DNA of 30,920 bases, from the IMG/VR virus record IMGVR_UViG_3300046737_000183, positions 1 through 30,920 of that record; one strand, given 5' to 3'. Every line of letters starts with the position of its first letter. Position 1 is the first letter of the stretch. Shown in pieces: positions 10,647 to 29,780 of this stretch. The notes beneath the pieces were generated by a model. It saw nothing but the letters and a program-made list of their open reading frames with translations, searched no databases and was not told the DNA's origin. Made by a program: the position numbers and the translations under genes. This DNA is from a virus.

Positions 10647-10916
10647 TCAAGGCTCCTCCGGGAGGAATCCTCCCGGTTTGAGAGGGGTGGATAGGCTGTG
10701 ACCGCACGTAAGGGCGCAATCGAGCACTTCCGCAAGGCTCAGGACAATGCGCCACCGTTTTCTTGGCCTCCGAACTACGATGCCCTCCGCCGGCCTGTAT
10801 TCGACCAACCAGCGGAATTCGGTGCAATCGGCAGTGCCGAGGCGCACCACCTTGTTTCGGCGCTCCTGTGGGGGCTCCTGGCGCTTTGACGAGGGTTCTA
10901 GGGGTGGGTCGATCAT
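10647..10916 (-). CDS. Small basic hypothetical protein upstream of DUF1376
   Basis: An 89-residue protein that starts at ATG 10916, overlapping the preceding stop as ATGA. It ends 2 bases before the GTG chosen for the DUF1376 gene. The N-terminal 25 residues are polar and charged (SSKRQEPPQERRNKVVR). A short beta-rich core follows (EFRWLVEYRPAEGIVVRRP, then RWRIVLSLAEVLDCALTCG). The C-terminal end, PLKPGGFLPEEP, is coded by the hairpin region and is probably just a by-product of it. No family is recognised. The size and core suggest a small single-domain protein of the early region. Confidence 0.65.
   Translation of the reverse strand: MIDPPLEPSSKRQEPPQERRNKVVRLGTADCTEFRWLVEYRPAEGIVVRRPRKRWRIVLSLAEVLDCALTCGHSLSTPLKPGGFLPEEP
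10653..10676 (-). promoter_or_regulatory. Ribosome binding site beside a GC-rich hairpin, DUF1376 gene
   Basis: On the minus strand, GGAGGAG (plus 10653-10659) lies 8 bases before GTG 10644. Immediately upstream, 10658-10665 and 10669-10676 (ccgggagg and cctcccgg) form an 8-bp stem with a 3-base loop that takes the first two bases of the Shine-Dalgarno sequence. A hairpin touching the ribosome binding site may modulate initiation, or merely keep it open when the upstream gene is translated. Confidence 0.55.
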
Positions 10917-11683
10917 TTCTCGTTCAAACGGAGAATTGTGTCGGTGACGTTATCGAGGAACCCACTTTCCTTGAGGACTTTCAAGCGTTCGCAGAGTTCG
11001 ACGAATTCCTGAAGCTTCTGAATCTCGCTGGCGTGGTCCTTGTCCATAAAGAAGTTCCTAACCTCGCGAAGGTTGGTCATCAGGGCGCGGGTTTCGCCTT
11101 CGATGGCGAATCGCGACTGCCTGATTTCGGTGGTGCGTTTCTTAATGTCATCCATCCAGTCCATCCAGTCCATCCGCCAACGCGCCATGATGACTTCGAG
11201 CGCGTTGGTAAGGTCCAAAGCCTGTTCTTCAAGGGAACTGACGTGCTCGATTGTACTGGGGCCCTCCTTGAGTACTCTGGTGACCAGAGACGCATCCCTT
11301 TCGGAGGCGCCCCCACTGTTCATGGCTATAAGTGTCCGTTCCGAGGCGGTCTTGGCCTCGTGGATAGTTTTCAACGATGCTTTCTGGCTCAGGAATCGGG
11401 CCTGTCGGATGTTGGGTGTGGCTTCTGTTGGTCCGGTTTCTTGTGCTGGCATAGGTGGTGGTGGTGGTGGTGGTGGTTTGGCCCACCAAGGCGACTTGGC
11501 GAGCATTTTAGCTGCTTGGCGGTCAATGGGCTTCCAAAGTACATCGCCTCCAGCAACCTTGTGGTCGACAAAGGGACGGGTTGGAGGTTTGGACGGTCTC
11601 GAAATCCTCGGGACGAACGATGGGGGCGGAGTCGAGCTCGGAAACAGTTTGTTCAGTTGGGCTCTGATCGGGTTGAGTTTCAT
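10913..11683 (-). CDS. Coiled-coil protein with a polyproline tract, function unknown
   Basis: A 256-residue frame. Residues 1-60 are Pro/Ser-rich, then KSPWWAK leads into eight prolines (coded by eight ggt units at 11454-11477). The rest is helical and charged, with a 9-base repeat (tccatccag, 11151 onward) that gives MDWMDWMDD, and a long coiled coil to the end. It ends with an ATGA overlap to the next gene. The start is uncertain. ATG 11683 would overlap the preceding gene by 161 bases, and a start at ATG 11506 would avoid that. The two frames could also be one gene broken by an indel. No function is assigned. Confidence 0.6.
   Translation of the reverse strand: MKLNPIRAQLNKLFPSSTPPPSFVPRISRPSKPPTRPFVDHKVAGGDVLWKPIDRQAAKMLAKSPWWAKPPPPPPPPMPAQETGPTEATPNIRQARFLSQKASLKTIHEAKTASERTLIAMNSGGASERDASLVTRVLKEGPSTIEHVSSLEEQALDLTNALEVIMARWRMDWMDWMDDIKKRTTEIRQSRFAIEGETRALMTNLREVRNFFMDKDHASEIQKLQEFVELCERLKVLKESGFLDNVTDTILRLNEK
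11454..11477. repeat. (ggt)8 microsatellite coding polyproline
   Basis: Eight uninterrupted ggt triplets lie inside the coiled-coil gene and encode eight prolines on the minus strand. The repeat is in frame, so length changes would only alter the tract. Confidence 0.9.
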
Positions 11684-11813: not shown

Positions 11814-12146
11814 CTAGCTTCCCTCTGGCGCATCCATAACCCAGACGATGTCAGCCACGCGAATGTCAACTCCTCGGTCCGCTTTGTAGGGGAGAATTTT
11901 TACCGCATCCTGTTCCCAGTCCCCAAGACTCAGATGAATCCATCGAGGATCGAGCATTCTTGCCCGCTCAAATCGGATGACTTCTCCGGTGCGTAGTTTC
12001 AGGGCGTAATCGAACGGATCCACGCAGGCTTTTGCCAGGGCCTCGGATCCAATCAAGGAAGTGAGGATCTTTTCGAGCTGTTGGCCGGTGTACTCTCCAG
12101 CGTCGGGTGCGAAGTCGTCGGGGTTGGCTGTTTCTGGTGTGTTCAT
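11814..12146 (-). CDS. Hypothetical protein downstream of the protease-like gene
   Basis: A 110-residue acidic protein. The ATG at 12146 overlaps the preceding stop as ATGA and the stop abuts the next start. After a short N-terminal tail, residues 20-45 are helical (GQQLEKILTSLIGSEALAKA). The C-terminal half is a compact beta-type domain (ALKLRTGEVIRFERARMLD, then WIHLSLGDWEQDAVKI and GVDIRVADIVWVMDAP). Small domains of this kind are common in phage early genes, but I do not know the family. There is no signal peptide, so it should stay in the cytoplasm although its upstream neighbours are exported. Confidence 0.72.
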   Translation of the reverse strand: MNTPETANPDDFAPDAGEYTGQQLEKILTSLIGSEALAKACVDPFDYALKLRTGEVIRFERARMLDPRWIHLSLGDWEQDAVKILPYKADRGVDIRVADIVWVMDAPEGS

Positions 12147-12886
12147 TTTGGTTCTACTTTCACGTTGGTGACGGTCACTGGCAGGGCTGGCACGGTGTTG
12201 GTGGGAGGGTTAAGCCAGTCGGCCACGGCTCCAAGGAATGGGCGCACGAGGGCCCCGCCCGAGTAGGTGTCTAGCTTCACCGGGTTGTTGCCGCTGGAGA
12301 TGGGGCCCAGGAATCGCCAGTCCTTGGTGTAGGTCGAATTCCCGCTGTCGCCGTCGGCGGCCGCCGCGTTGCCGCCGATGACTTCCGGCGTGTTGAATCG
12401 CCACCAGAATTTCCCCCGGGTGCAGGTGACGGCGGCCTGGCCAATCCGTTTGGTTTTATTGGCGCCCCAGTACCAGATTTCGCCGTTGGTGATGCAGTTG
12501 GTCCCATCGCTCGAATTGCAGGCGGCACCGTCCGCGACGATCCAGACGTGTTCAAAGGGTGTCATGGCGCTGGTCCAGCCATTGGTGGCAATGGGGGCCC
12601 AGCTCTTGAGGGGCTGACGCATGATGAGGAAGCGGATGTCCTCGGTCGCGACGTCAATCGTCTTGTCGATCTCGTTCGTAATGCCCTCGTAGACGATCCT
12701 GTTGCCGTAGCTGACGTGTTTGACGCCGACCATGACCTTCCAACCTATGGCGGTGCATTGGTGTGCGTTCCAGGCCCAGCCGATCGCCCCCGGCGGCGCG
12801 TTGGTTCCGGCCCACACGCCGTTTGTGATGAGCAGCGCCCGGACTGGCAGCTGGATCAACAGGAGAATGGCAAGCAACGCTTTCAT
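12143..12886 (-). CDS. Exported trypsin-like serine protease candidate
   Basis: A 247-residue protein. Residues 1-18 form a clear Sec signal peptide (MKALLAILLLIQLPVRA). The mature part fits a chymotrypsin-fold (S1-like) peptidase: VGVKHV with H57 as the general base, EDIRFL with D83 in the place of the DIALL motif, and DGDSGN with S181 as nucleophile. Four cysteines (44, 123, 131, 155) could make two disulfides, as expected outside the cytoplasm. The spacing between Asp and Ser is normal for the fold; the stretch between His and Asp is short. It lies at the end of a run of exported proteins and is linked to both neighbours by ATGA overlaps. The substrate is unknown. A secreted fold lacking activity is possible. 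Confidence 0.62.
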   Translation of the reverse strand: MKALLAILLLIQLPVRALLITNGVWAGTNAPPGAIGWAWNAHQCTAIGWKVMVGVKHVSYGNRIVYEGITNEIDKTIDVATEDIRFLIMRQPLKSWAPIATNGWTSAMTPFEHVWIVADGAACNSSDGTNCITNGEIWYWGANKTKRIGQAAVTCTRGKFWWRFNTPEVIGGNAAAADGDSGNSTYTKDWRFLGPISSGNNPVKLDTYSGGALVRPFLGAVADWLNPPTNTVPALPVTVTNVKVEPK

Positions 12887-13341
12887 TCAACCTTCACGCG
12901 GCCGGTGAGTTTGGATGTGCCTCCACCTGCCTCAATGCGGAGATAGCCGGGAGGAGGTCCGCCCATGGAAACGCTTCCTGGGACGTAGAGCCATGTCCCA
13001 CTCCCTCCACGGTCCTGAACCCAGTTCTGTGAATCGTTCACGCCAGATGAGAGGGCGATTGAATTCCCATCCCAGCTGACAACGAGCCGCTTTCCGTTCA
13101 CATGGACGAGCGAGACGTTGAGGGTCTCCGCGCGCTGGGCGTAGGAGATTTCATATTGCTCGCCCGTCTGGTAGTGCTCGAAACTGCTCCAGTCGTTTGT
13201 CCCGAACGTCCTTCGCGGTTTGTCCTTGCTCTTGCCAAGCGTGATCGCGAGCACGATTCCTACAAGCAGGTTGACAAACATTATGCACTTAGTCGATCTC
13301 CAGAGCTTCCAGTCGCTCAATTCAATATGAAATAGTTTCAT
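12883..13341 (-). CDS. Membrane-anchored small protein of the exported cluster
   Basis: A 152-residue protein. A polar N-terminus (residues 1-18) is followed by one hydrophobic segment (about 19-36, KCIMFVNLLVGIVLAITLG), then a basic KSKDKPRR. The rest is a beta-rich domain with many Ser, Gly and Tyr (EHYQTGEQYEISYAQRAETL, then NGKRLVVSWDGNSIALSSG). I expect a single-pass membrane protein. The basic stretch right after the segment makes the orientation uncertain by the positive-inside rule. The start ATG overlaps the previous stop by one base and the end overlaps the protease gene as ATGA, so they are translated together. No family was recognised. Confidence 0.7.
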   Translation of the reverse strand: MKLFHIELSDWKLWRSTKCIMFVNLLVGIVLAITLGKSKDKPRRTFGTNDWSSFEHYQTGEQYEISYAQRAETLNVSLVHVNGKRLVVSWDGNSIALSSGVNDSQNWVQDRGGSGTWLYVPGSVSMGGPPPGYLRIEAGGGTSKLTGRVKVE

Positions 13342-13532
13342 CAGGTCGGTTTGTAGACTTCGTGGTAGATGCGAGTTCCGTCTTTTTCATCGCCGTCCCA
13401 CTGGTAATCACGGATGTGGTAGCGGCCGGTGTGTCGTTCTACAGATACCATGCGCTGGTAACGCTCTCCGATGTTGTCCGGAACCTCCCTGGAGTCTCGG
13501 AGCCCATCCGCCGTCTCTAGGATAATCTTCAT
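13341..13532 (-). CDS. Small hypothetical protein within the exported cluster
   Basis: A 63-residue protein starting at ATG 13532, 2 bases after the preceding stop. The frame is open further upstream, but that part lies inside the neighbouring gene and looks random. The sequence MKIILETADGLRDSREVPDN continues into a short beta-rich, charged domain (YHIRDYQWDGDEKDGTRIYHEVY). It has no signal peptide, so it would be the only cytoplasmic member of this group. Its N-terminus looks like one strand followed by a turn. The function is unknown. Confidence 0.68.
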   Translation of the reverse strand: MKIILETADGLRDSREVPDNIGERYQRMVSVERHTGRYHIRDYQWDGDEKDGTRIYHEVYKPT

Positions 13533-13534
13533 CC

Positions 13535-13948
13535 TCACTTGTCTTGAAAGAAGGCATAGGCATTGTTGCTGGCGCAGATGCCTTGATTGTTGTAGGCCGT
13601 CATCGAGACGACAATTCCCTGCATGTTGGGCGCGCAGGCGTCGACGAAGGCATACCCGGTGACGGAGTCCTGCCCGTATCCATAGTATTTGTCCTCGATT
13701 GTCTTGGGACCAATCGGGGACATCCAGTAGGTGTGCACGCGCCACTTCATGGCATACTCGCCCGAGAACCCATACACCCAGATCTTGTGGACGCCGGTAT
13801 CGCTTAGATTGTTGTAGGCAAAGATGACCGTGCGTTGAAATATACCATTGGTGTATACCACTTTAGGCTTGAGCACGCCCGGCACAAGGCATTCAGCGGC
13901 GAGGGTCAGGGCCGCCAAGCAGGCGGCAACGATTGCGGTGGCTTTCAT
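13535..13948 (-). CDS. Exported hypothetical protein
   Basis: A 137-residue protein starting at ATG 13948, 2 bases after the previous stop. Residues 1-19 make a signal peptide (MKATAIVAACLAALTLAAE). The cysteine at 20 is not preceded by a proper lipobox, so cleavage by signal peptidase I near ALTLA is more likely than lipidation. The mature domain is beta-rich and aromatic (HKIWVYGFSGEYAMKWRVHT, then YYGYGQDSVTGYAFVDAC). Three cysteines are present. An in-frame upstream extension to 14053 is inside the neighbouring gene and is rejected. The function is unknown, but it belongs to a block of four genes for exported or membrane products. Confidence 0.72.
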   Translation of the reverse strand: MKATAIVAACLAALTLAAECLVPGVLKPKVVYTNGIFQRTVIFAYNNLSDTGVHKIWVYGFSGEYAMKWRVHTYWMSPIGPKTIEDKYYGYGQDSVTGYAFVDACAPNMQGIVVSMTAYNNQGICASNNAYAFFQDK

Positions 13949-13950
13949 AT

Positions 13951-14580
13951 TCAAGGCCAGAGTTCGATCGAAGCGGTGACGGTCTTTGGCAGCGCTTCCG
14001 AGCGGACCGGGTTGGAGGGGTCGCTGGCAAACTTCTTGTGGAACGGGCTCCACGTCAGAACCCGGATGAATTCGAGTTCCTGTGCGGCCAGCAATATGAT
14101 CTCTGTGGCATTAGTGACCGTGGCCACCGTGGTCCAACTGACGGGGAAGTCCGAAGCGCGTCCCTTCTGCACTGGGAATGTCACACCCGGCAGATCTACG
14201 GCGTTGTAGGACCAACTGACTTTAATCTGTCCGACCGCGTTGGTGACGGCCTGAACGTCGATGACGCCGAGGCTATGCTCGCTCCCGAGCCAGTTGGGGG
14301 GTGAAGCGCTGGGCTTCACCGGCGGCGTCTTGGATGAAGGCATTCCGCCGCTGACGAGGATCTCGCGATGGCCAGACGAGTTCGTCCGGACGCTCACGGT
14401 GACGCCGTCGACATCGGAGAGGACAATTGTCGGCTCCTGAATTGCGTGTGGGGCAAGTGAAGCCGCGCTTGGCTGGCCTGTGGGGGGCAGCGGCGGGGCC
14501 TTGCTTGGTAGAACCTCGGCGCCGATGAGTACCATGGCGGTGAGGGCGAAGAGGACAATGGACAGGCGTTTATGCTTCAT
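13951..14580 (-). CDS. Exported hypothetical protein, first gene of the exported cluster
   Basis: A 209-residue protein with a Sec signal peptide at residues 1-21 (MKHKRLSIVLFALTAMVLIGA). A Pro/Ser/Ala-rich linker follows (about 22-48), then a beta-rich segment (TIVLSDVDGVTVSVRTN) and a second Pro-rich patch. The C-terminal domain is about 100 residues, with repeated hydrophobic strands (GVIDVQAVTNAVGQIKVSW, then VSWTTVATVTNATEIILLA). The C-terminal style resembles fibronectin-like domains of exported verrucomicrobial proteins, an impression only. No catalytic motif is visible. It is separated by 36 bases from the Acb2-like gene upstream, one of the few real gaps in this operon. Confidence 0.74.
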   Translation of the reverse strand: MKHKRLSIVLFALTAMVLIGAEVLPSKAPPLPPTGQPSAASLAPHAIQEPTIVLSDVDGVTVSVRTNSSGHREILVSGGMPSSKTPPVKPSASPPNWLGSEHSLGVIDVQAVTNAVGQIKVSWSYNAVDLPGVTFPVQKGRASDFPVSWTTVATVTNATEIILLAAQELEFIRVLTWSPFHKKFASDPSNPVRSEALPKTVTASIELWP

Positions 14581-14616: not shown

Positions 14617-14820
14617 TCATTTCCCGGCAGCGATGGCCTTCAAGTCTTGCTCAAGCCACATAATGGCTTCCTGAACCTTGGTGACGGCCAGGGCGCGTTC
14701 CCGGCTGTTCCTCGATTGCTGGTCGCGCTGCATGGTCAGCATTGAATCCACGGTGGCCGTGAGGTCGGCGCGCCAGGCTTTGGTTTGGTCTTCGTGGCTG
14801 ATGATTGTTTTTTGGTCCAT
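14617..14820 (-). CDS. Small helical protein resembling the Acb2/Tad1 hairpin family (possible anti-CBASS sponge)
   Basis: A 67-residue protein starting at ATG 14820. It has two helical parts; the second carries SRERALAVTKVQEAIMW at residues 39-55. From memory, phage proteins annotated as Acb2/Tad1 hairpin domain share a C-terminal pattern close to S-R-E-x-x-L-A-x-T-K-L-E-E-A-x-M-W. Known members bind the cyclic nucleotide signals of CBASS and related defences and so protect the phage. This protein lacks the usual N-terminal part and has LEQ instead of ANA after the Trp, so the match is partial. The next gene upstream is a clear paralogue. Other helical hairpin proteins could share this look, so the function is a hypothesis. 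Confidence 0.6.
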   Translation of the reverse strand: MDQKTIISHEDQTKAWRADLTATVDSMLTMQRDQQSRNSRERALAVTKVQEAIMWLEQDLKAIAAGK

Positions 14821-14822
14821 AG

Positions 14823-15206
14823 TTATTTTGGTTGGTTGGTTTGTTCGAGTAACGCACATTCGATTTTGTATTTCAGTTGTCCTATGCGCCAATGGCGCAG
14901 ATCGCGCTTTCGGCCCTCTTGGAACGTCTTGCGCCAGCGCGCTACGCGCTGGCGTTCCTTGAGGACTGAGGCAGGCGGTTTGTCTCCAAGGGCTACGAGG
15001 TCCTTGGCCAGCCAAAGGACAGCTTTATGGAGGGCGTTCTCGGCCTGCGTGCGGGTGCGCCGTTGTCGGTTGATTACGCCGTTTGATTCATGGAGCGAAT
15101 CGTAGATTGCGGCCAGGGTGTTGCCCCAGTTTCTCGTCTGCTCCGTCTGAGAGATGAGTTCTAGCTCGCTTAGCCTGTGGATTGGATTGCTGGGTACGAG
15201 TTTCAT
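14823..15206 (-). CDS. Paralogue of the neighbouring Acb2-like protein with a basic C-terminal extension
   Basis: A 127-residue protein. Residues 18-75 align with the next gene's product: ISQTEQTRNW matches ISHEDQTKAW, LAAIYDSL matches LTATVDSM, and TQAENALHKAVLWLAKDLVA matches ERALAVTKVQEAIMWLEQDL. The C-terminal 50 residues are strongly basic (LKERQRVARWRKTFQEGRKR) and are absent from the shorter paralogue, so they could bind nucleic acid or be a separate helical module. It begins at ATG 15206, overlapping the upstream stop as ATGA, and ends 2 bases before the paralogue. The pair arose by tandem duplication. If the hairpin assignment is right, this copy may have gained another target. Confidence 0.7.
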   Translation of the reverse strand: MKLVPSNPIHRLSELELISQTEQTRNWGNTLAAIYDSLHESNGVINRQRRTRTQAENALHKAVLWLAKDLVALGDKPPASVLKERQRVARWRKTFQEGRKRDLRHWRIGQLKYKIECALLEQTNQPK

Positions 15207-15898: not shown

Positions 15899-16401
15899 CA
15901 GACCCCCCTTCTCCGCGGGTACATCCCCGGTTTTGAAGCCTCTCCAGCAGCGCCCAGATACCGCCAGGCGAGGTCCGGACCACGTTCGGCCAGTATCCGC
16001 ATGCCTGGTAGAAACAGGTGCCTCATATCGTGTCGTACGCGCACGACGCACCATTGCGAACGCAGATGCGCGGGCGTGCCATTTTCGACGCACGCGATGG
16101 TGTAGGGGGCCGGCATGGCCACGTAGGCGACCGTAAGCTCTGTGGGGACGCCATTTTTTGGGAATTCGACTTGGTAGGCGCCCACGACTCGGGCGGCGGC
16201 GTCCTGACTCCAGAGGATGACGCCGCGATCGCCGCGGACGAAGTCCTTGCCCTCGGTGCCGCGGGCTTTACGGATGACTTCGCGCGAAACGCCTAGGTGG
16301 GTGGCGAGGGTTGACTCCTCGTGCGGGAAATCGGGATGGGTGATGGCTGGCTGAGGGGTGGGGGGCATAGGACAGAAATCTAGGAGAGTGTTACCCATCA
16401 T
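15895..16401 (-). CDS. HTH-like DNA-binding protein
   Basis: A 168-residue protein. ATG 16401 overlaps the previous stop as ATGA (a second ATG follows at 16398). After a Pro-rich start, residues 34-75 read ESTLATHLGVSREVIRKARG followed by DRGVILWSQDAAARVV. This is a good helix-turn-helix with a short wing, like small phage regulators. A beta-type domain follows (ELTVAYVAMPAPYTIACVEN, then QWCVVRVRHDMRHLFLPGMR) and the end is basic. I expect a cytoplasmic DNA-binding regulator or replication accessory. The next upstream protein also carries an HTH-like stretch. Confidence 0.75.
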   Translation of the reverse strand: MMGNTLLDFCPMPPTPQPAITHPDFPHEESTLATHLGVSREVIRKARGTEGKDFVRGDRGVILWSQDAAARVVGAYQVEFPKNGVPTELTVAYVAMPAPYTIACVENGTPAHLRSQWCVVRVRHDMRHLFLPGMRILAERGPDLAWRYLGAAGEASKPGMYPRRRGVW

Positions 16402-17249
16402 GCTTCGGCCGGCGGCGCCGCGCACGCGAGCCCCCCCCCGGGGGTCTCGCGGGGGCCGGCGCCCGCGGTCGACGCGGGCGCGGGGCGGGCGGGCTCGGGC
16501 TCGGGCTCGATGGCCGCGGAGTCCGGCTCGAGGGCCGCCTCGGGACCGGTGGGACCCGATAGGAGTTGGTGGGAGTATGGCGTAGGTATCGGCGTAGTCT
16601 CTGGGATGGAAACCGCAGATTCGTTGGGGTTTCCATGTGGTACAGCTGAGTCGACATCAGATGCACTGACCGGATGCACCACCTGCAGCCCGGCCGACTG
16701 GAGCCAGGCCTCGAGCTCGCCGCGGCCGGGGGCGCTCCTGTGCTCCAGAATCTCGGTCGGCGCACCGGTCAAGAGCTGATGTTTGTCCGCGCTCACACCC
16801 AGCACGGTGGCCACGGCCTTGAGCCAGGCCGCCGATTCGAGGTTGCGCACGTTGCAGTCAAGCGCACCGCGCGCTTCCTCGGTAGCCTGCATCACGAGGC
16901 GCGCCATATTGGCACGAAGCCGGGTTGCAACCGGTTCGAGGTTGCCTCCGATCTCTGCCGCCGCCTCGATGGCATCGATGGTGTAGTGATGGACGCTGAC
17001 GCGCTCGCGGATTTGCCGCCGGCTCATGCCAGCTTGAAGACAAAGGACCACCGCGGCGGCCTTGGCCTCGTTCTTGGTTGCGATCTTGCCAGTGATTTCC
17101 CATTTCTTGGCGAACAAGCGCCGCGCGGCTGCCGCAACTTCGTGCTCGAGCTCCAGCCCTTCCTCGTCGAATAGGCTGGGCTGGGTCAGCACTGCGGCGC
17201 GCACCTGACCAAGGGTCGTGGGATCAGTGAAGTGAGAGGCTAAGGACAT
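16398..17249 (-). CDS. HTH-containing protein with a disordered, very GC-rich C-terminal tail
   Basis: A 283-residue protein. Residues 50-100 hold an HTH-like region (KAAAVVLCLQAGMSRRQIRE, then VSVHHYTIDAIEAA). A helical part follows with LKAVATVLGVSADKHQLLTG and GAPTEILEH, a pattern I associate with phage DNA-binding proteins that carry a similar DK-LL-G-PTE stretch. The last 80 residues are disordered (Pro/Glu/Ala). The coding DNA at 16415-16540 is much richer in G and C than the surroundings and contains a run of nine C followed by five G (16431-16444). The ATGA overlap with the next gene is kept, which supports the reading of that run. The role could be regulatory or DNA recognition. Confidence 0.72.
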   Translation of the reverse strand: MSLASHFTDPTTLGQVRAAVLTQPSLFDEEGLELEHEVAAAARRLFAKKWEITGKIATKNEAKAAAVVLCLQAGMSRRQIRERVSVHHYTIDAIEAAAEIGGNLEPVATRLRANMARLVMQATEEARGALDCNVRNLESAAWLKAVATVLGVSADKHQLLTGAPTEILEHRSAPGRGELEAWLQSAGLQVVHPVSASDVDSAVPHGNPNESAVSIPETTPIPTPYSHQLLSGPTGPEAALEPDSAAIEPEPEPARPAPASTAGAGPRETPGGGLACAAPPAEA

Positions 17250-19573: not shown

Positions 19574-19875
19574 GACTCTTAACCATGCCAACTCCACAGA
19601 CAGCAAGCGAGATTGCCACCTTTGCCACCGGAGTCCTGCTCCGAAAGGGCCACTTGAATGAGGGATACTCGCTTGATAACGCGGCGGACGCGACTGAACT
19701 CGCCGCTGACCTATGGGCCATCGCAGACAAAGGCGATCTCGACGTTTGCAATTCGGCCTGCATTGCTTTCCACGTTGCCGCCTTGCATCAGCTTCTCGAC
19801 GCAGCTCTTGAGCCTGACCTGAAGGCTTGGAGGTTCAACCGGCACGCCCGAGAAATCTACCGCGCCATTGCATGA
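19570..19875 (+). CDS. Small hypothetical protein before the integrase
   Basis: A 101-residue protein starting at ATG 19570 (ATGA overlap); a second ATG at 19585 is the alternative start. It is Ala-rich and helical (ASEIATFATGVLLRKGHLNE, then DATELAADLWAIADKGDLD) and ends with KAWRFNRHAREIYRAIA. No motif was recognised. Its stop overlaps the integrase ATG as ATGA, so it is tightly linked to integrase production. A small protein in this slot could be a recombination accessory factor, but the helical sequence does not show a clear HTH. Confidence 0.72.
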   Translation: MRLLTMPTPQTASEIATFATGVLLRKGHLNEGYSLDNAADATELAADLWAIADKGDLDVCNSACIAFHVAALHQLLDAALEPDLKAWRFNRHAREIYRAIA

Positions 19876-21161
19876 AAGACGCGATCCCATTCACCCACGC
19901 TGGCAAGGCACGCCGACTTGTGCGGCAACCTCGGGACCGCAAGTTGCCCGAGGTTGAGCGGGCCGGACGCCCGTGGGTCCTGCGCTACACGCGACCCGAC
20001 ACGAGAAAGGCCGCTTGGAAGAGCATCGGGGGCGCGCACGAGACGCCGAAAGTGTTGGCCGCCAAGGCAAAGGCATTCCTCAAGGGGTTGGAAACCCAGC
20101 CCGCAGCGGCCTGGATCGCAGCCAATGCCGCGCGGCGCGGCTTGCTCGTCGCGACGCTTGTCCACGATTTCATTGACGCTGGGTGTCCTGAATCGACTGG
20201 GCGGCCACGCACACACAAGCGCCTGGACGACATGATTGCGCAGTTAAACACCGCGCTTTGGTACTTTGGCGACCTAATCGCGGAGCGCCTGCGACCCGGC
20301 GATTGCATCGAGTTCGCGGAGTGGAAGCGTACCCAATTGAAAGCTGCGGGCCGTGCTGTTGGGCAGGGAGGCGCGCGAAGCTGCGAACTCGCTCTGAGTG
20401 CCCTATCTGGTGCGCTTTGGTGGGGTGTCCTTACTCGGCGGCTCGAGGTCAACCCTTTGGCCAACAGGCCAGCGTTGCGCGCAGCCTCCGAAATCACGCA
20501 TCACCACCGTTTCGTTCCAGACTCCGACGAGGAGCTCCACGCTTTGGCTAGTTGGTGTTTCAAAGAGTCGCCTGCGACCGTAGTCGCCGGGGCTCAGATT
20601 CTCTTCTGTGCCATGACTGGTCTTCGGAGCGGGGAATTGCCCTGTCTGCAATGGCCTGCTGAGGGGAGGCCGTACAATGGGCCGGGCATGTTGCAGGTCT
20701 GCAAACCGGACGGTTCTGAAATCACTTGGCTGCATGTCCGCCGCGAGAAACGCGGGACCAATCCCGTCGTGCGGGTTCATCCCGCCCTCGCGATGCTCAT
20801 CGAGGCATGGCGCGCGTATCTCGCGCGAACCGCACCCGGCGTGGAATGGATGTTTCCCGGGCCGGGCGGGGGCCAAGGGCGCGCCGATTTCTCCCGGGTG
20901 TTGGCTCGTGCCGCGGAAGGCATCGGATCGCCTGCAAACCGATTTGGCGAGACTCGCCGGACGTCCCACGCGCTCCGGGCGTACTACGTCGAAGTCCGGC
21001 GCAATGCCGGCGCTTCGGATCTCGCAATTGCTGGCGACCTCGGGCAAGGCGGTGGCGACCGCCTCATCCGTACGACCTACGGGGCCGCCGACTCGTTTGC
21101 GAGCGGCCGCCTGTGCTGGCTGCCAACGGGGATTCCGCCCGCGTGGCAGCTTCTCTCCTGA
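19872..21161 (+). CDS. int: Tyrosine recombinase (phage integrase)
   Basis: The 429-residue enzyme should integrate and excise the phage genome by site-specific recombination. The N-terminal half holds a basic arm and a core-binding segment with PRTHKRLDDMIAQLNTA. The catalytic half shows TGLRSGELPCLQW with R252, a possible Lys at 293 (RREKRGT), SHALRAYYVE with H366 and R369, and RTTYG with Tyr403 as nucleophile. The usual second His (LGH) is replaced by Gln (LGQGGGDRLIRTTYG, Q392), a known kind of variation. ATG 19872 overlaps the preceding stop as ATGA. It is the main sign of a temperate lifestyle. The attachment site is not evident; the short AT-rich gap after it (21162-21192) is a candidate only. 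Confidence 0.9.
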   Translation: MKDAIPFTHAGKARRLVRQPRDRKLPEVERAGRPWVLRYTRPDTRKAAWKSIGGAHETPKVLAAKAKAFLKGLETQPAAAWIAANAARRGLLVATLVHDFIDAGCPESTGRPRTHKRLDDMIAQLNTALWYFGDLIAERLRPGDCIEFAEWKRTQLKAAGRAVGQGGARSCELALSALSGALWWGVLTRRLEVNPLANRPALRAASEITHHHRFVPDSDEELHALASWCFKESPATVVAGAQILFCAMTGLRSGELPCLQWPAEGRPYNGPGMLQVCKPDGSEITWLHVRREKRGTNPVVRVHPALAMLIEAWRAYLARTAPGVEWMFPGPGGGQGRADFSRVLARAAEGIGSPANRFGETRRTSHALRAYYVEVRRNAGASDLAIAGDLGQGGGDRLIRTTYGAADSFASGRLCWLPTGIPPAWQLLS

Positions 21162-22487: not shown

Positions 22488-22780
22488 CCAAGCAACGTCT
22501 CTATCAGTTGCGCCAGGTCGCCCGCGGCCGTTGCATGATTTGCGCCACTGATGGCTTTAAGGGCGGACTCTGCAAGGGCCACTATGCGGAGCATCAAAAC
22601 AAGCGAAAGCGGCGTCTCGCTGAGCTCGTGGCACTTGGTCAGTGTATGCAATGCAAGGGCTCGAGCGATGGCAAGCAGCGTTGCCTACGCTGCCGCGAGG
22701 CGTTCAACGCCGCGAGCCGCCAGGCGTATGCGGAGCGCCGGCTAGGGGCGAGCCTTGGTCCGCTCGCGCTCCCGCCGTAA
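22484..22780 (+). CDS. Double zinc-finger protein, end of the rightward operon
   Basis: A 98-residue protein. The start is TTG 22484, overlapping the previous stop as TTGA, with GAGGAG 8 bases upstream; an in-frame upstream stretch lies inside copy 2 of the cassette. It has two metal-binding units: C17-x2-C20 with C30-x2-H33 (RCMICATDGFKGGLCKGHY), and C54-x2-C57 with C67-x2-C70 (QCMQCKG, then RCLRCREAFNAASR). The linker is basic (NKRKRRLAEL), so nucleic-acid binding is likely. Its 3' end overlaps the end of the large polyvalent gene on the other strand by 39 bases. Confidence 0.8.
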   Translation: MTKQRLYQLRQVARGRCMICATDGFKGGLCKGHYAEHQNKRKRRLAELVALGQCMQCKGSSDGKQRCLRCREAFNAASRQAYAERRLGASLGPLALPP

Positions 22781-25700
22781 CAGGTCCGCCTTGCTCGCCG
22801 CACTCGGCATCCGTTGAAGCCGCTCCTGCAACAAGCTCGAGCGGCTCTTCATTAGTCCGGGCAACACCCGTTGCAGATGCTCGAGCGCGTAGGGGTCGCG
22901 CAACAGCACACGTTCGCTCTTGCTCATTTGGGTTTCGAGAATCTGCCGGCGGAGTGCCGGACCCTGTCCACCGCGGATGGCTGCGCTCGCGGTGTCGAGC
23001 AAACCAGCGTCCGCCCAGCGGCGCGCGAGTACTTCAACGGCCTGCCGCTGCTTCGCGCGGAGTTGCTCAATCTCGGCGCTCGCCTCGCGGTCGGCGTCGA
23101 AGAGACCACCGTTTGACGATTTGATCCAGCGGCCGACGGCGTTCTGGATCACGGGCGCCGCGAGAAAGGCCTGGACGGCCGTGTCCTTGGGCGCGCTCAA
23201 GGGTTGGTTGCGGAATCGGCCGATGATTCCACCGCCAAGCTGATTCACTGTCCACTCGCTCAGTTGTTTCGTGGCAGGCCAACCGCCTGCGGCAAACGTC
23301 GTGTCGTCGATGACATGGCGGCCGGTGTGCAAATCGGTGGGGTTGACGCCGCCGAACGTGTATTGACCGATGGCAAGGAGTGACTGAAACACGGGGTTCA
23401 GCGACGGCAATTGACCCCCGAAAATGTTGCCCCACGCGCTTCCGCGCCCGCTGAACGCTTTGAACAGAGCCGCGTGCATGATGCGCATGGGGTCGGGCAA
23501 GGGCAGTCGGAAATACAGCACTTTGCCGCGTGCCTCGTCGTCCCAAGCAATTGGAATGACGAAGTAGTTGGACATGTCGTAATCAGGCACCGATCGAAAC
23601 TTGCGCTTCGTGTCCTCGCCAAAGGCGCCCGCCGCGCCCATTGCCATCGCCGCAGTCGGCACACCGACCATTGCGGCCATCTTGCCCGCAAACTGCCAAG
23701 GATGCTCGGCTACGCTCGAGGCCCACGCCCTCATTCCCTGTTTCCACGGGTTGAAGAACAGCCCAAAAAAGTCAATCGTGGCATTGCTCGCGCCTCGGTC
23801 GAGGAAGTCCGGGGAACCCGCCCGGCTCCGTACAATCTCGCGTTGTTTCCATTCTGGTAGGTTGGAGAAATTCTTGTCCAAGTAGGTCATTCCCTGTGCC
23901 TTGGTGAACCGTTCGACGGCTTGCCCCACTGCCAGGTACTTGTGCCAAAGACGCATGGCGGCATGCACGCCCTGCGCTTCGGCGTCCCAAAGCTTCGGGT
24001 CCATTCCAAACGAGGCCAGCTTGACGTCGTACAGGTCCGAGACGTTGCCGTAGACACCGCGGGGATCCTCGCGGGACACCACCATCTGGCGGCGCAAGAG
24101 TGCGTCGGCGATCGGGTTCTTAACGTCGCCGCGGGCGCTCGCGCGGGCCGCCTCCCACGCGGTAGGTGCATTGCGCAGCCAATGCGTGGCCAGTTGGCCA
24201 AGGTGGCCAGGCATGACCGCCATGAAACCAAGCGTGTCGCGCACGAAATTAACCGGCCAAAATCCATAATTTAAGGCCGTAAACAAAGCTTTCTGCCAGT
24301 TGAGCGAGCTGGTTACAGCGCCATGCAATCGCGAGTCGAGAGCCGCGCCGCCGTTGATCGCGTCGGCCTGTACCTTGCGTACGTAAAATGCTTTGGGTGC
24401 GCCATCCTCGAGAAGGACGATTGTGCCGACGCGCTTGGTGTTGACGATCTTGAACTCGCGACGGTCGCCTGCCCACCGCGACTCGGCCGGGATGATCTCG
24501 CCCGGTGTCTCGCGCGAGAGCGTGCGCACGATCTCGCGCTTGGCGATGTTGCGGTGAGCTGCGCTAATCAGGGAGAGCGCCTTTAAGACGGTGGCCGTCG
24601 CCGGGTTGCGTACTTCGCCGAGCATTCCAATTTGCGTGTAGATGTGAGGCGTGACGTTCGAGCCATAGGCGAGTTCGATCTCACGTTCTATCCCTTTGTC
24701 GGGCAGGCCTCGTACCGCGGCGAAAGTCGCGTAATTGACATTCTCGTCGATCTTGTCCTGAAGCTTTTGATTCCAAAGCCGGGCCGCTTTCATCAAAGGA
24801 ATGACTTGCTCGGCGTAGATCGATCGGAATTCAAAGCCGGCGGAAGTAAGAGCCTGCCAGCGCGCGGGACCAAGCTGGGTTTGCATCTCTCGCAGGCGAT
24901 CAATGGACGCCTTCGGGTGCCATCCGCCCGGGTTGTAGAGGTTATGACGTTCGTTGATTACTCGCTGATGAAAAAGGAGTTCGCCTAAGTCGGCCATGTC
25001 GAGGTTGTGCGCGAGCAATTTGCCGCCGACGCGCTCGTTGACATGCGCCAGAAATCGCTCGTGCTCCGCGGCCCTGTAGCGGAAATTCCCGACGGCACCC
25101 ATGAGGGCACCCTCGCTCTTGGTGTCCTTGGCCACGCGGTAGACCGGGCCGAAACGGCGATCGACGTGGTACAAAATGTTATCGTAGATGTCCGCCTTGG
25201 CGGTCTTCTGTTGCTCGCGCCACTTCTCCACGCTGGCCTCGGCGTCCCGCCGCCATGAATCCCGCAGACGCAAAACGCGCTCGCGGGCGACAGTGCCCGC
25301 GGAAATGCTGTCCTGAATCCTCTCGAAGGTTTCTTTGACCTCGGGCCTTGCGTCGAGCCAGCCATGAAACAGGCCGTAGGTGATGGGTGCGCGCGCCGCC
25401 ATGGCCGCCGGATTATTGAGGAAGACTGAGAAGGCCTCGGCATACATCTCGGAAGGTTCTTTGAAGTAACCTTCCATCTTGGCCGTGCCGCGCCACCACG
25501 CAATGAGCGGCTCGAGCTCGGCCTTGACTTTGGCGAGTTCGACCGTGCGTCGAGCCTTCATTTCCTTCTGCAGGAGCGCTTCAAAGCGCGCGCGCACCTC
25601 GGCCTTGGTCGGCTCGCGTCCGGATTTCTCGCGGACGGTGCGCCAGACCTTGCGCGTCCCGGTTTGCACCGTGCCCTGCACGGTGGCCAGGCGTTGGTCG

Positions 25701-28570
25701 AGCATGCCGCGCATGGCGGCCTTCAACACTTCCACCTGTGTCGCGCGCGGCTGCGTCGCAAACCACTTGTAGAGCTCCGGCATCTTCTCGCGCGCATCCA
25801 TTCCAAGGACCGCCTTGACGTCGTCAGGCGTGATTTGGAGCTGACCATAGATCGGCTCTTCCACGACGATGTCCCGGACAATGTCGATGATCGGACCCAG
25901 TTCGGCCTTCATCTGCTTCTCAGCCTCGCGATGCAGTTTGGCGCGCTCGGCGGCCGTGATGGGCCGCGGAGGAGTCTTGGCGTCGAGCGGTAGGGTGTGC
26001 TCGAGGTAACCTTTGAGCGCGGCAATGTGCCCAAAGAGGTTGCCGCGGCCTTCAATCGCGTGGTCGGGCAACCAATCAACCAAGTGTCCGATTTCGTGCC
26101 ACAACACTTTGAGGGCCATCAATGGCGGATGCTGTTTGGCTTCCTCGTAGGCGTCCCGAAGTAGATCCTCATAGCGGCGTTGCGCGATGATCGCGGCTTC
26201 CTCCGGCGTCCGCCCATGCTGTTGGCCCCAATCATTGGCTTCCTCGCGCAGTTTGGCCTTCTCTGCAGGCGTCAGCAGGTCGGCCGTGTCCGCGCGCAGT
26301 TCGATGCGCCCGGTGGCCTCGTCGTACCGGAACACACCGAGGGCGTCGGGCCGGCGGCGGATCGCCTCGACCACCTTGGGGTATTGGCCGCCGGTCAACT
26401 GTCGGTAGAATTCGACGGCCTCGGGCAGATCGACCGGGAATTGTGTGAACTTTGGGTTATTGGCGGGGTTTGCTGGCCCTGTGCCAAGTGGGCCGCCGGG
26501 GTAACCGGCGGCCGCGGTGTACCCCCGGGCGCCGGGAGTCCCGCGCTTGCGCGCCTGCGCCTCGGCAGATGGCCCGGCAAAGATGTCGCCTTCGGGTTCG
26601 TCGAAGAGCCCGCTTTGGCCAATGTCGCCCGTGGATCCGGTTAGAGGCTTCTGCGTGAGGTCCTCGAGCTTGGATTTCTGGCGGCGGCGCTCCTCTTGGG
26701 CCGCCAGATCCGCCTCGCGTGCCTGCTGCTCCTCGATGGTCTCTGGTTTCTCAAAGAAACCCGGAGTGGTCGGGGCCGGTTCCGGTTCCTTGGCGAGTTC
26801 CTCGGGGCTGAGGAAATCCTCGCGGGCGGCCGGCTCGTAAGTACCTTTGTCGATGTGGAGGAATTCCGCCTGGTCTGGGCCAACCCGTTGAACGCCAAAC
26901 TTCGGTCCGTCCTTGACCGTCACGGACACTAGGTTGCCGTCCTGATCGAACTCGGTGGCGGCCACCCAAAAGGTGTGATCCTGAACCTTGAAAGTATCGC
27001 CTTCGATCAGAGATTCAACCGGCACGCGCTCGACGTTCTCGGCCTGCGTCTTGGGCCGCTCACCGGCAACTACCTTCTCCTCAAACTGCTGCGTCTGGCG
27101 CCCCTCGAGGTCAACTTGGCGCTCATCCTCATAAAATTTCGCGCGCCATGCCTTGCGGGCGGTGTGTGCCCCCTCGATGGCATCAATCAAGGAATCCACC
27201 TTGGCAGGATCTAGGCCGGCGCCGAGCCCCTCGTGACGCACGAGGGCGGATAGGGCGACGTCGGCGGGGATTCCACCGCGGCGCATGATTTGGCGGATGG
27301 CTCCTCTCGGTTTCCAGTCGGGCCGGGCTTCCTCGATCAACTTGGGATCGATCTTGCCGATTGTGCTTTCGATCTCGTCGATGATGTCCGGCGGGCGATC
27401 GGCGTCGGCGCGCCCATACTTGCGCTTGGTTCGAGCGGATGGAGGCGGTGGCGCGCTGGCCGTCGTTGGGCGTTCCTCACGCTCCGCCGCCATTTCAGAG
27501 CCTACTCGCTCGTCTGGGACGGTGATAGTTTCCGCGTTCGGCTTGGTTGCCACCGCCTCCGAAGGTTTCGAGGGGTCAAATCCGGGCAGTTCGACCGCTG
27601 CAAGTTCCGCGACCGGGGCCGGGACGGGCGCCGATTCCTCCGTCGGCGCCTGTCCGGCCGGGGCCTGGGGCGGTTCCGCAAGGGGTTGTCGCGCACTCCC
27701 GGGGATCGCCTCAGCCTCTAAGGGGATTGTTGGTTCCGGCCCGGGGCCAAAGCCACGTGCTTGGGCAGCCGCTCGCGCGAGCCACGGGGCGGCCTCGCGC
27801 GCCTGATAAACCTCGGCATCTTGGACGGTGGCGGCCGCCTCGATGGGCGCCAGACGTGCCAAGAGTTCGGCGCGTTCGTCGGGAAGACCTTGGGGTCCAA
27901 CGTTAGCTTCCTCGGCGATGTCCCGGGCAACGACGGCGCCGGGATGATCCGGCAATGGGGCGGCCTCAACCGCGTGCTTGGCGGCCAGCTTGGCAAAGAA
28001 GGCACTGCCCAGCACACCGGCGCCAGCCTCGACGGCCTCCTGCAGTCGACCTTCCTTGGCAGCGGCGACCATGCGCCGGACGCCCTCGGGCACATGGCTT
28101 GCCATGTCCCCGGCGAAGTAGGCGGACACGGCTGCGTTGACCGCACCCGGCAGGGCGGTGCCCGTCATCAACAGGAGGGGCTGTTGCAGGCCCTCGACGA
28201 GTCCGGCGCCAGCGTTGGCCAGCCCGGCGCCCACTTGGGCGACGGTGCCCTCCTGTTGTCCCATTCTCGGAATGGGGATTGCTGGTCGCGGGGCGAGAAG
28301 TCCTCGCTGGCCGAGGCCTTCAATGCGGCCGGCGGCCTGCTCAGCGGTGTCGCCGAGGAGGGGCGAGAGTGTCTCGCGGATTCGGCGCCATTGATCCAGC
28401 GTCCGCTCGCGAGGGGTTGGCGGCCCCATCTCGGTGCCGTACCGGGGAGGGCCCTGCATGGCGCTCAGACTCGCTTGATTGACCACTTCCGACGGTTGGT
28501 CAGGGTCAAATCCGACGGGCTGAATGCCGGCATCAACCACTTCCGACGGTTGGTCGGGGTCAAATGGCAT
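22742..28570 (-). CDS. Large polyvalent (internal/ejection) protein with a zincin motif
   Basis: A 1942-residue protein, by far the largest in the window. It starts at ATG 28570, one base after the previous stop (an in-frame ATG at 28636 lies in the neighbouring gene). The N-terminus has FDPDQPSEVV at residues 3 and 21, and a variant (FDPSKPSEAV) near 331. Such motifs are frequent at the N-termini of phage internal proteins. A long Pro/Glu-rich region follows. HEIGH at 825-829 is a metallopeptidase signature; EMYAEAF near 1041-1047 could give the third ligand. The C-terminal third looks like the large polyvalent protein-associated domains (FFNPWKQGMRAW; PLPDPMRIMHAALFKAF) with a short hydrophobic stretch (MAAMVGVPTAAMAMGAAGAF). 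It probably travels in the virion and enters the cell with the DNA. Confidence 0.82.
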   Translation of the reverse strand: MPFDPDQPSEVVDAGIQPVGFDPDQPSEVVNQASLSAMQGPPRYGTEMGPPTPRERTLDQWRRIRETLSPLLGDTAEQAAGRIEGLGQRGLLAPRPAIPIPRMGQQEGTVAQVGAGLANAGAGLVEGLQQPLLLMTGTALPGAVNAAVSAYFAGDMASHVPEGVRRMVAAAKEGRLQEAVEAGAGVLGSAFFAKLAAKHAVEAAPLPDHPGAVVARDIAEEANVGPQGLPDERAELLARLAPIEAAATVQDAEVYQAREAAPWLARAAAQARGFGPGPEPTIPLEAEAIPGSARQPLAEPPQAPAGQAPTEESAPVPAPVAELAAVELPGFDPSKPSEAVATKPNAETITVPDERVGSEMAAEREERPTTASAPPPPSARTKRKYGRADADRPPDIIDEIESTIGKIDPKLIEEARPDWKPRGAIRQIMRRGGIPADVALSALVRHEGLGAGLDPAKVDSLIDAIEGAHTARKAWRAKFYEDERQVDLEGRQTQQFEEKVVAGERPKTQAENVERVPVESLIEGDTFKVQDHTFWVAATEFDQDGNLVSVTVKDGPKFGVQRVGPDQAEFLHIDKGTYEPAAREDFLSPEELAKEPEPAPTTPGFFEKPETIEEQQAREADLAAQEERRRQKSKLEDLTQKPLTGSTGDIGQSGLFDEPEGDIFAGPSAEAQARKRGTPGARGYTAAAGYPGGPLGTGPANPANNPKFTQFPVDLPEAVEFYRQLTGGQYPKVVEAIRRRPDALGVFRYDEATGRIELRADTADLLTPAEKAKLREEANDWGQQHGRTPEEAAIIAQRRYEDLLRDAYEEAKQHPPLMALKVLWHEIGHLVDWLPDHAIEGRGNLFGHIAALKGYLEHTLPLDAKTPPRPITAAERAKLHREAEKQMKAELGPIIDIVRDIVVEEPIYGQLQITPDDVKAVLGMDAREKMPELYKWFATQPRATQVEVLKAAMRGMLDQRLATVQGTVQTGTRKVWRTVREKSGREPTKAEVRARFEALLQKEMKARRTVELAKVKAELEPLIAWWRGTAKMEGYFKEPSEMYAEAFSVFLNNPAAMAARAPITYGLFHGWLDARPEVKETFERIQDSISAGTVARERVLRLRDSWRRDAEASVEKWREQQKTAKADIYDNILYHVDRRFGPVYRVAKDTKSEGALMGAVGNFRYRAAEHERFLAHVNERVGGKLLAHNLDMADLGELLFHQRVINERHNLYNPGGWHPKASIDRLREMQTQLGPARWQALTSAGFEFRSIYAEQVIPLMKAARLWNQKLQDKIDENVNYATFAAVRGLPDKGIEREIELAYGSNVTPHIYTQIGMLGEVRNPATATVLKALSLISAAHRNIAKREIVRTLSRETPGEIIPAESRWAGDRREFKIVNTKRVGTIVLLEDGAPKAFYVRKVQADAINGGAALDSRLHGAVTSSLNWQKALFTALNYGFWPVNFVRDTLGFMAVMPGHLGQLATHWLRNAPTAWEAARASARGDVKNPIADALLRRQMVVSREDPRGVYGNVSDLYDVKLASFGMDPKLWDAEAQGVHAAMRLWHKYLAVGQAVERFTKAQGMTYLDKNFSNLPEWKQREIVRSRAGSPDFLDRGASNATIDFFGLFFNPWKQGMRAWASSVAEHPWQFAGKMAAMVGVPTAAMAMGAAGAFGEDTKRKFRSVPDYDMSNYFVIPIAWDDEARGKVLYFRLPLPDPMRIMHAALFKAFSGRGSAWGNIFGGQLPSLNPVFQSLLAIGQYTFGGVNPTDLHTGRHVIDDTTFAAGGWPATKQLSEWTVNQLGGGIIGRFRNQPLSAPKDTAVQAFLAAPVIQNAVGRWIKSSNGGLFDADREASAEIEQLRAKQRQAVEVLARRWADAGLLDTASAAIRGGQGPALRRQILETQMSKSERVLLRDPYALEHLQRVLPGLMKSRSSLLQERLQRMPSAASKADLLRRERERTKARP
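28482..28565. repeat. Two 30-base direct repeats coding the FDPDQPSEVV motif
   Basis: Bases 28482-28511 and 28536-28565 are nearly identical (one difference, a or g, in the centre) and are spaced 54 bases apart, that is 18 codons. They lie at the very start of the large polyvalent gene and encode its two N-terminal FDPDQPSEVV motifs. Near identity at DNA level suggests a recent duplication or gene conversion. Confidence 0.9.
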
Positions 28571-28571
28571 G

Positions 28572-29780
28572 TCAGCGCTTGGTTTCCCCGCCAATATCGT
28601 TCCACGTGGAACCATCCCACTGATACAGGCGCCCATTCTGGCGCCTCACCTCGCCCTTGTTGAACTTGCTGGGTTTGGCGGCGTTGGGCTGGGCTGGGGC
28701 GGCTGGTGGCAGAACGGTCGGCGCGGCGGTGCCGGTCGCAGGTGTCTGGCCAGAGCGGCCGAAGGTTCTGGGCGCCGTCTGGCTTGGGGCTGCATTGGTG
28801 GCGCCCGGCGCCGCGGCTGGGCCACCAAAGAGCCGATCGAACCAGCTGCGTTCCGCGGGCGGCAATGGTGGCGCCTTGGCGGCTTGATCCTTGAGGAAAG
28901 CCTCGAGCTGGGCAGGTGTACCTTTGAAGCCTGGTTCTCCTGGGAGCCCGGTGATACTGGCTGTGCCTTCGGGCGTCTTGATGACGGTGAACCCTTTGGG
29001 TCCCTGAATGACGGAGTAGCCTGCGATAGGTGTCCCGTCCGGCTTGAGGATCGGCTTGGCTTGCGCCTCGAGCTTTCTCGGGTTGATGCCGCTTGGCAGC
29101 ACGGTGTTGCCTTGACGAAGGAAGCGCGTGCCGGTCTCCGGGTCCTCCATGAAACTACCCGGTCCCACTGTCCCGCCCTTGCCTTGGTTGGCCATGCGCC
29201 AATGCAGGAAGTTGACGACGTTGGGGTTGTTGATGGCGTCGGGATTCTTGGCCAGCGCCCAGTCGATGAGCTGCCCCTCGGCATCGGGTGCCCCCGCAAG
29301 GTAGGGACTGCGCACGTCGGAGCCCGGGTTGCCAACGTCTTGCGCGAAACGAGAAGCGGCCTTCCTCAGAATTTCTGCCTGCGCCTCGTCGCGCGCCTGT
29401 TTGTCGGCGGTGGCCTGCTGTGCTTGGCGTTGCAGATTGAGGAAGGCGTCCGCCCGGGTGTTGTCCAGCGGAATGTTCTTGGTTTGGGCCTCTTGGAACG
29501 CGAGCGTGCTCTTGAGTTGATCGGCTGCGTCCCGCATGGTCTTGGCTCTGACCATGCCGGTGATTGTCGAAATCCGGTCGGCGCGGCTCAAGGAATCCAG
29601 ATGCTCCGGATCGACGTTGGGGAATTGCTCCGGATTGCTCTTAACCAACGTCAGCAAGGCCTTGTCCGTGTCCTTCTGGCGCTTCCGTTCGTCGGCGAAC
29701 CGTTCAATGTTCTGACCGAGGCGCGAGATCCCGGCAAAGAGCGGGCTGAAATCGGATTGAATTCCTGGGGCGTATGGCAT
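28572..29780 (-). CDS. Virion-type protein with coiled coil, upstream of the polyvalent protein
   Basis: A 402-residue protein. Residues 1-60 begin PYAPGIQSDFSPLFAGISRL, a pattern seen at the start of phage internal virion proteins, and continue into a charged helix (NIERFADERKRQKDTDKALL). A long Gln/Ala-rich coiled coil spans about 90-150 (NLQRQAQQATADKQARDEAQ). The middle holds a small beta domain (GYSVIQGPKGFTVIKTPEGT). The end is Pro/Ala-rich, then GRLYQWDGSTWNDIGG. It ends one base before the large gene and starts 4 bases after the previous one. I expect an ejection or tail-associated partner of the polyvalent protein. No enzyme motif is seen. Confidence 0.74.
   Translation of the reverse strand: MPYAPGIQSDFSPLFAGISRLGQNIERFADERKRQKDTDKALLTLVKSNPEQFPNVDPEHLDSLSRADRISTITGMVRAKTMRDAADQLKSTLAFQEAQTKNIPLDNTRADAFLNLQRQAQQATADKQARDEAQAEILRKAASRFAQDVGNPGSDVRSPYLAGAPDAEGQLIDWALAKNPDAINNPNVVNFLHWRMANQGKGGTVGPGSFMEDPETGTRFLRQGNTVLPSGINPRKLEAQAKPILKPDGTPIAGYSVIQGPKGFTVIKTPEGTASITGLPGEPGFKGTPAQLEAFLKDQAAKAPPLPPAERSWFDRLFGGPAAAPGATNAAPSQTAPRTFGRSGQTPATGTAAPTVLPPAAPAQPNAAKPSKFNKGEVRRQNGRLYQWDGSTWNDIGGETKR

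Follow-up and report, generated by a model that had tools for sequence, protein, structure and literature searches.

Most known cases of phage exclusion at the level of the cell envelope involve a single protein, which binds a receptor or blocks it. Receptor inactivation is also the most often described mechanism of superinfection exclusion (PMC11436027). Among the closest described systems, Cor (phages phi80 and N15) and SieA (phage P22) are phage-encoded, envelope-directed, and accessory, and each is a single protein without an enzyme. Here, we describe a cluster of genes for exported proteins at positions 12143 to 14580 (minus strand) of IMG/VR record IMGVR_UViG_3300046737_000183. This record, an incomplete fragment of 30,920 bases without end repeats, was analyzed at its full length and is referred to below as the window. 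Like Cor and SieA, the cluster appears to be a phage-encoded accessory element directed at the envelope; unlike them, it consists of several coupled exported genes, including one for a probable protease of 247 amino acids (aa), and any exclusion effect is predicted. The cluster is real and unusual, and we regard it as a variant within a known kind, the envelope-directed accessory genes of phages, and not as a new kind of system.

Gene organization of the exported cluster

Four proteins of the cluster carry predicted export or membrane signals. The 209-aa protein (13951 to 14580) begins with a signal-peptide-like sequence (MKHKRLSIVLFALTAMVLIGA), and its C-terminal half gives the impression of possibly being FN3-like. 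The 137-aa protein (13535 to 13948) also has a signal-peptide-like N terminus (MKATAIVAACLAALTLA) and contains four cysteines. One membrane span is predicted near the N terminus of the 152-aa protein (12883 to 13341; CIMFVNLLVGIVLAITLG), flanked by charges that are ambiguous as to topology. The fourth gene (12143 to 12886) encodes the 247-aa protein, a probable exported chymotrypsin-fold serine protease. Signal-peptide-like N termini were called by a simple n/h-region rule rather than by SignalP, and only these four among the called genes of the window passed the rule for such a sequence or an N-terminal membrane segment. The 209-, 137-, and 247-aa proteins are thus predicted to be exported, and the 152-aa protein is predicted to reside in the membrane. 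The clustering is not due to chance, as the four exported-type genes among approximately 29 lie within five neighbors (P of ~0.004). For comparison, 0 of 52 proteins of verrucophage P8625 have a signal peptide (PMC4642752). Third-position G+C content (0.66 to 0.81, versus 0.42 to 0.50 at second positions) supports all four genes as coding. A recent foreign origin of the module was considered and is not favored, as the codon usage of the 247-, 137-, and 209-aa genes is in line with that of the phage's structural genes.

The genes are tightly coupled. A gap of 2 bases separates the 209- and 137-aa genes, and the 152- and 247-aa genes overlap by 4 bases. Between the 137- and 152-aa genes lies an open reading frame (ORF) for a 65-aa protein with a GTG start (13341 to 13538, minus strand; 62 to 63 aa from an internal ATG), which lacks a signal peptide and overlaps its neighbors by 4 and 1 bases. 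The order of the row is therefore exported-exported-cytosolic-membrane-exported. Downstream, a gene for a 110-aa nonexported protein (11814 to 12146, minus strand) overlaps the 247-aa gene by 4 bases and may or may not be part of the module. A first-pass annotation, made from the letters of this DNA, had placed the four exported or membrane proteins here; their ORFs, lengths, and named residues were all confirmed. It had also described the four genes as following one another with overlaps of 1 to 4 bases or tiny gaps. The tight coupling stands, but the 137- and 152-aa genes are not adjacent, the 65-aa ORF having been missed.

S1 landmarks in the 247-aa protein

The 247-aa protein resembles chymotrypsin-fold proteases (MEROPS clan PA, family S1, including trypsin and bacterial secreted S1 enzymes) in the order and rough spacing of its putative catalytic His, Asp, and Ser residues. 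A predicted signal peptide of approximately 18 residues (12833 to 12886, MKALLAILLLIQLPVRA) ends with V-R-A before the likely cleavage site. The proposed catalytic His, H57 (codon at 12716 to 12718), lies in GVKHV, and the sequence QCTAIGWKVMVGVKH matches the S1 strand that precedes His57, with the T and I of a T-x-I motif 12 and 10 positions before H57. The proposed catalytic Asp, D83 (12638 to 12640), is found in EDIRFLIM, and the proposed catalytic Ser, S181 (12344 to 12346), in GDSGN (residues 179 to 183). These three residues were present in the S1-like contexts that the first-pass annotation had given for them. Further downstream, S197-S198-G199 of FLGPISSG (12290 to 12298) are the proposed counterpart of Ser214-Trp215-Gly216; S197 and G199 lie at +16 and +18 relative to S181, versus +15 and +17 in a trypsin chain with LIGVTSWG. 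All of these codons are on the minus strand. A C-terminal helix is likewise shared with S1 proteases.

The landmark pattern was partly written after the 247-aa protein had been seen and is passed by 5 of 18 members of the phage-borne family described below, so the following counts are optimistic: among 200,000 shuffles, 2 contained the triad landmarks (T-x-I with H57, D83, and GDSG) and none contained all four landmarks, and the triad landmarks were found in none of 2,004 ORFs from other phages. The occurrence of T-x-I, DIRFLIM, GDSG, and FLGPISSG in S1 order is nevertheless evidence that is independent of the alignment supplied for structure modeling (see below).

Several features set the protein apart from described S1 enzymes. 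It has GVKH in place of AAHC, an Asn after GDSG, and an Ala (Ala175) at the position that sets specificity in trypsin, which argues against a preference for Arg or Lys. The S1 signature patterns of the PROSITE type are [LIVM]-[ST]-A-[STAG]-H-C and G-[DE]-S-G-[GS], and neither is matched by the corresponding segments of the 247-aa protein (VGVKHV and GDSGN).

Phage-borne trypsin-like domains

Phage proteins were retrieved from IMG/VR with a DNA pattern for GDSG[NS]P[AT]F. A family of trypsin-like domains with this motif was found in more than 20 contigs (L096-L123; e.g., L100:1041-2078, L104:1420-2685, and L106:7140-8399). In L100 and L104, the domain follows N-terminal parts that resemble tail fibres, collagen, or Ig domains. 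No scanned member had a Pfam match above the cutoff. Against solved trypsins, a single family member reached an E value of 0.013, and the profile of an alignment of the family together with the 247-aa query (alignment A4) reached 1.3e-5. Another DNA pattern, GDSGN[PS]T[FY], was discarded after yielding three unrelated proteins, and a broader pattern for the catalytic Ser region gave no yield.

The 247-aa protein is like these domains in being phage-carried, in its GDSGN motif, and in the alignment of its triad. It differs in having a signal peptide, in having no appendage part (present in L100 and L104), and in being encoded upstream of dnaB; the family profile also does not detect it significantly. 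In a MAFFT alignment in which the 247-aa protein was trimmed to residue 43, H57, D83, and S181 were invariant with the family triad. With the untrimmed protein, H42 (in NAH), not H57, aligned on the catalytic His. The trimming anchors only the stretch before H57, and this choice favors the S1 assignment.

Structure models and assessment of the protease assignment

When AlphaFold was run on the supplied alignment, residues 43 to 92, i.e., the first barrel with H57 and D83, were modeled with a pLDDT of 77 to 84. In Foldseek, the best 50 matches of this guided model were all chymotrypsin-fold proteases, including viral 3C enzymes. With VIA, 85 to 98 residues of the model were aligned at ~2.4 to 3 Å in several matches, at a middling Z score of ~7. 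The supplied alignment biases this result, so that the test is partly circular, and the absence of non-S1 folds is not used as proof.

Several results weigh against a protease and against a functional module. Pfam, PHROGs, NCBIfam, and PDB sequence searches returned no S1 match for the 247-aa protein, and the profile of the phage trypsin-like family (hmmsearch and hhalign) finds only its GDSGN stretch. A three-block score was equaled in 8 of 3,000 shuffles; the Ser block carries this score, and H57 was not placed. The single-sequence model of the mature protein had a pLDDT of 36, and neither the model nor its fold search was informative. Most of the guided model outside the first barrel, including the second barrel, was below 50, and the unmatched PROSITE-type signatures point in the same direction. 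At the level of the cluster, a nonexported 65-aa gene lies inside the row, and the module is known from one record only, its recurrence not having been found.

The failure of S1 profiles is weak evidence, because the phage GDSGNPAF family likewise escapes Pfam even though its profile matches solved trypsins. On balance, the 247-aa protein likely has a chymotrypsin (S1-like) fold, and, with somewhat less assurance, it is probably an active protease. The first-pass annotation had proposed a trypsin-like protease and fold prediction as its check. A chymotrypsin-like first barrel was indeed modeled, and the S1-like assignment is supported to that extent; the proposal does not extend with equal confidence to the second barrel, and the fold comparison shares the circularity noted above.

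Putative sponge genes beside the cluster

Acb2 and Tad1 are known to act as sponges for cyclic nucleotide defense signals. A 67-aa protein resembling the Acb2/Tad1 hairpin is encoded on the minus strand at 14617 to 14820, in a gene separated by 36 bases from the 209-aa gene downstream of it. Its matches to PF24729 scored 27.1 and 27.2 bits (cutoff, 27), and it belongs to the neighborhood of the cluster rather than being a proven part of the module. Directly behind it, at 14823 to 15206 on the same strand, is the gene for a 127-aa protein whose N-terminal half is paralogous to the 67-aa protein (32% over 63 aa) and which has no Pfam match of its own. The hairpin match supports an anti-defense neighbor, and the two genes are probably an anti-defense sponge pair. 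Because the module adjoins this pair, the region looks like an anti-defense or anti-competitor island. It resembles Acb2/Tad1 anti-defense islands in having the hairpin domain in the gene just upstream and a paralogue beside it, and it differs in that the exported genes lack a match to any defense family and in that the sponge score barely reaches the cutoff.

Gene row and genomic setting

The cluster is part of a long minus-strand row. Read leftwards from ~18.4 kb, this row comprises small regulators, a helix-turn-helix-like protein (16398 to 17249), the two small paralogues (14617 to 15206), the exported group, a DUF1376-like protein (9703 to ~10656), DnaB (8123 to ~9751), the terminase (5833 to ~7750), the portal, a scaffold-like protein, and an SU10-type major capsid protein. 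The exported group is thus co-directional with replication and packaging genes, as the first-pass annotation had reported, and the gene order places it in the promoter-proximal portion of this row. This order suggests early expression within an operon. No promoter or terminator specific to the exported group was recognized above chance. On the opposite (plus) strand, an ORF at ~19872 to 21161 has R...HxLR...Y motifs of a tyrosine recombinase, a call made by motif only, as neither Pfam nor NCBIfam gave a match. Because of this ORF, the phage is probably temperate. As to the host, the proteins give a Verrucomicrobia-like impression.

Related phages were found through the terminase, portal, and capsid proteins (L002, L008, L012, L029, and L083-L092). 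These records, many of which are fragments, contained no Acb2-like gene and no homologue of the exported proteins. Because no exported-protein homologue was found in related phages, the module looks accessory. The 247-aa protein had no homologue in viral contigs, genome contigs, phage records (tblastn), or 50 related records. Likewise, the 209-, 137-, and 152-aa proteins had none in phage records or in a set of 29 records, with the window's own copies as the positive control. No family, PDB, or phage match was obtained for the 209-aa protein, and the 137- and 152-aa proteins likewise had no match. The terminase alignment A1 proved too diverse for searching, and a two-sequence version was used instead. 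This profile found further relatives in viral contigs and none in genomes, so no host genome was reached. A literature search found no phage-encoded exported trypsin-like protease.

Three other genes were observed in passing. In a related phage, a 90-aa lipoprotein-like gene (L013:9269-9541) lies directly upstream of dnaB, a single exported gene in a similar place. In the window, a 256-aa protein (10913 to 11683), encoded upstream of dnaB, shares 41% identity over its C-terminal part with the ORF at L060:4418-4702, which lies between the terminase and portal genes. Eight consecutive prolines (KPPPPPPPPM) occur in the same protein, and the G/C-rich triplet repeat that encodes them may be prone to slippage. 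A 1,964-aa protein (22742 to 28636) without a family match has an HExxH stretch (VLWHEIGHLVDW); by its look, it may be a large protein that is part of the virion or is injected, with a segment similar to metallopeptidases.

Possible roles of the module

We favor a module that acts on the host envelope, because the envelope and the cell exterior are the only places where exported proteins made early can act. That 12143 to 14580 is an accessory module for superinfection exclusion or envelope remodeling is a tentative proposal, which may well prove incorrect. A temperate tailed phage would express the module early in its lytic cycle. At least three of its proteins (209, 137, and 247 aa) would cross the inner membrane, into which the 152-aa protein would be inserted. 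The 247-aa product would be a secreted chymotrypsin-fold serine protease (H57-D83-S181). Its target, to be trimmed or destroyed, would be a protein of the cell surface or periplasm that competing phages use, or else incoming phage proteins; the 209-, 137-, and 152-aa proteins would serve it as targeting, scaffold, or membrane partners. As long as the phage occupies the cell, superinfection would be excluded or the envelope remodeled. The adjoining sponge-like gene strengthens such a role. Envelope change and the blocking of superinfection had been put forward in the first-pass annotation and still appear to be the most plausible role. In an extended version, which we think unlikely, the exported partners would deliver the serine protease to the envelope to cleave receptors or incoming phage proteins and, together with the cytoplasmic sponges, would form a two-layer shield.

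An alternative concerns the 247-aa protein. If its GDSG motif and its His and Asp were coincidental, or if it were an inactive S1-like binding fold, the module would be a set of unrelated exported orphans. The lack of a significant match to any S1 profile and the large share of the signal that comes from the short GDSGN motif are consistent with this, but all three catalytic residues and the post-Ser segment are in place, the first barrel is modeled confidently, and an inactive form would not be expected to keep the full triad; we consider a nonprotease rather unlikely. The exported proteins could instead serve counter-defense by neutralizing defense proteins located in the envelope (e.g., membrane effectors), while the Acb2/Tad1-like pair binds cyclic nucleotide signals inside the cell. 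Such a division of labor would suit the position of the hairpin gene and its paralogue immediately upstream, and anti-defense genes are known to cluster in phages (PMC10767833). Against it stand a Pfam score barely at the cutoff, the fact that neighbors in phage early regions need not share a function, and the lack of any match between defense-system family models and the exported proteins, so that counter-defense by these proteins seems doubtful.

A helper role in lysis is improbable; here, the outer envelope would be weakened at the end of infection by the protease and the other exported proteins, acting like or beside spanins. Exported and single-span proteins are typical of lysis cassettes, the row continues into structural genes, and Pfam, PHROGs, and family scans recognized no lysis gene anywhere in the fragment; this fragment, however, lacks the part of the genome where such genes may lie. 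The module is located upstream of dnaB and not among late genes, peptidoglycan is not a normal substrate of trypsin-fold proteases, and no muramidase, amidase, or holin-like protein was matched in the set (Pfam, PHROGs, and NCBIfam), although unfamiliar types could escape family matching. The statement in the first-pass annotation that the group does not fit lysis was nevertheless too strong for an incomplete fragment. Lysogenic conversion, in which proteins at the surface or secreted from it would give the lysogen an advantage through adhesion, nutrient capture, or evasion of predators, was also raised there and now appears still less probable than a lysis function. The tyrosine-recombinase-like ORF makes the phage look temperate, but this integrase is called by motif, and the exported genes lie in the replication and packaging row, which a lysogen should repress, with no recognizable promoter or terminator of their own.

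If the envelope-directed module is real in function, some phages would degrade surface proteins enzymatically, and the cluster provides a concrete set of genes with which this may be tested. The adjacent Acb2/Tad1-like pair further suggests that anti-defense regions can hold envelope-acting genes, which would be missed by searches for cytoplasmic inhibitors only.

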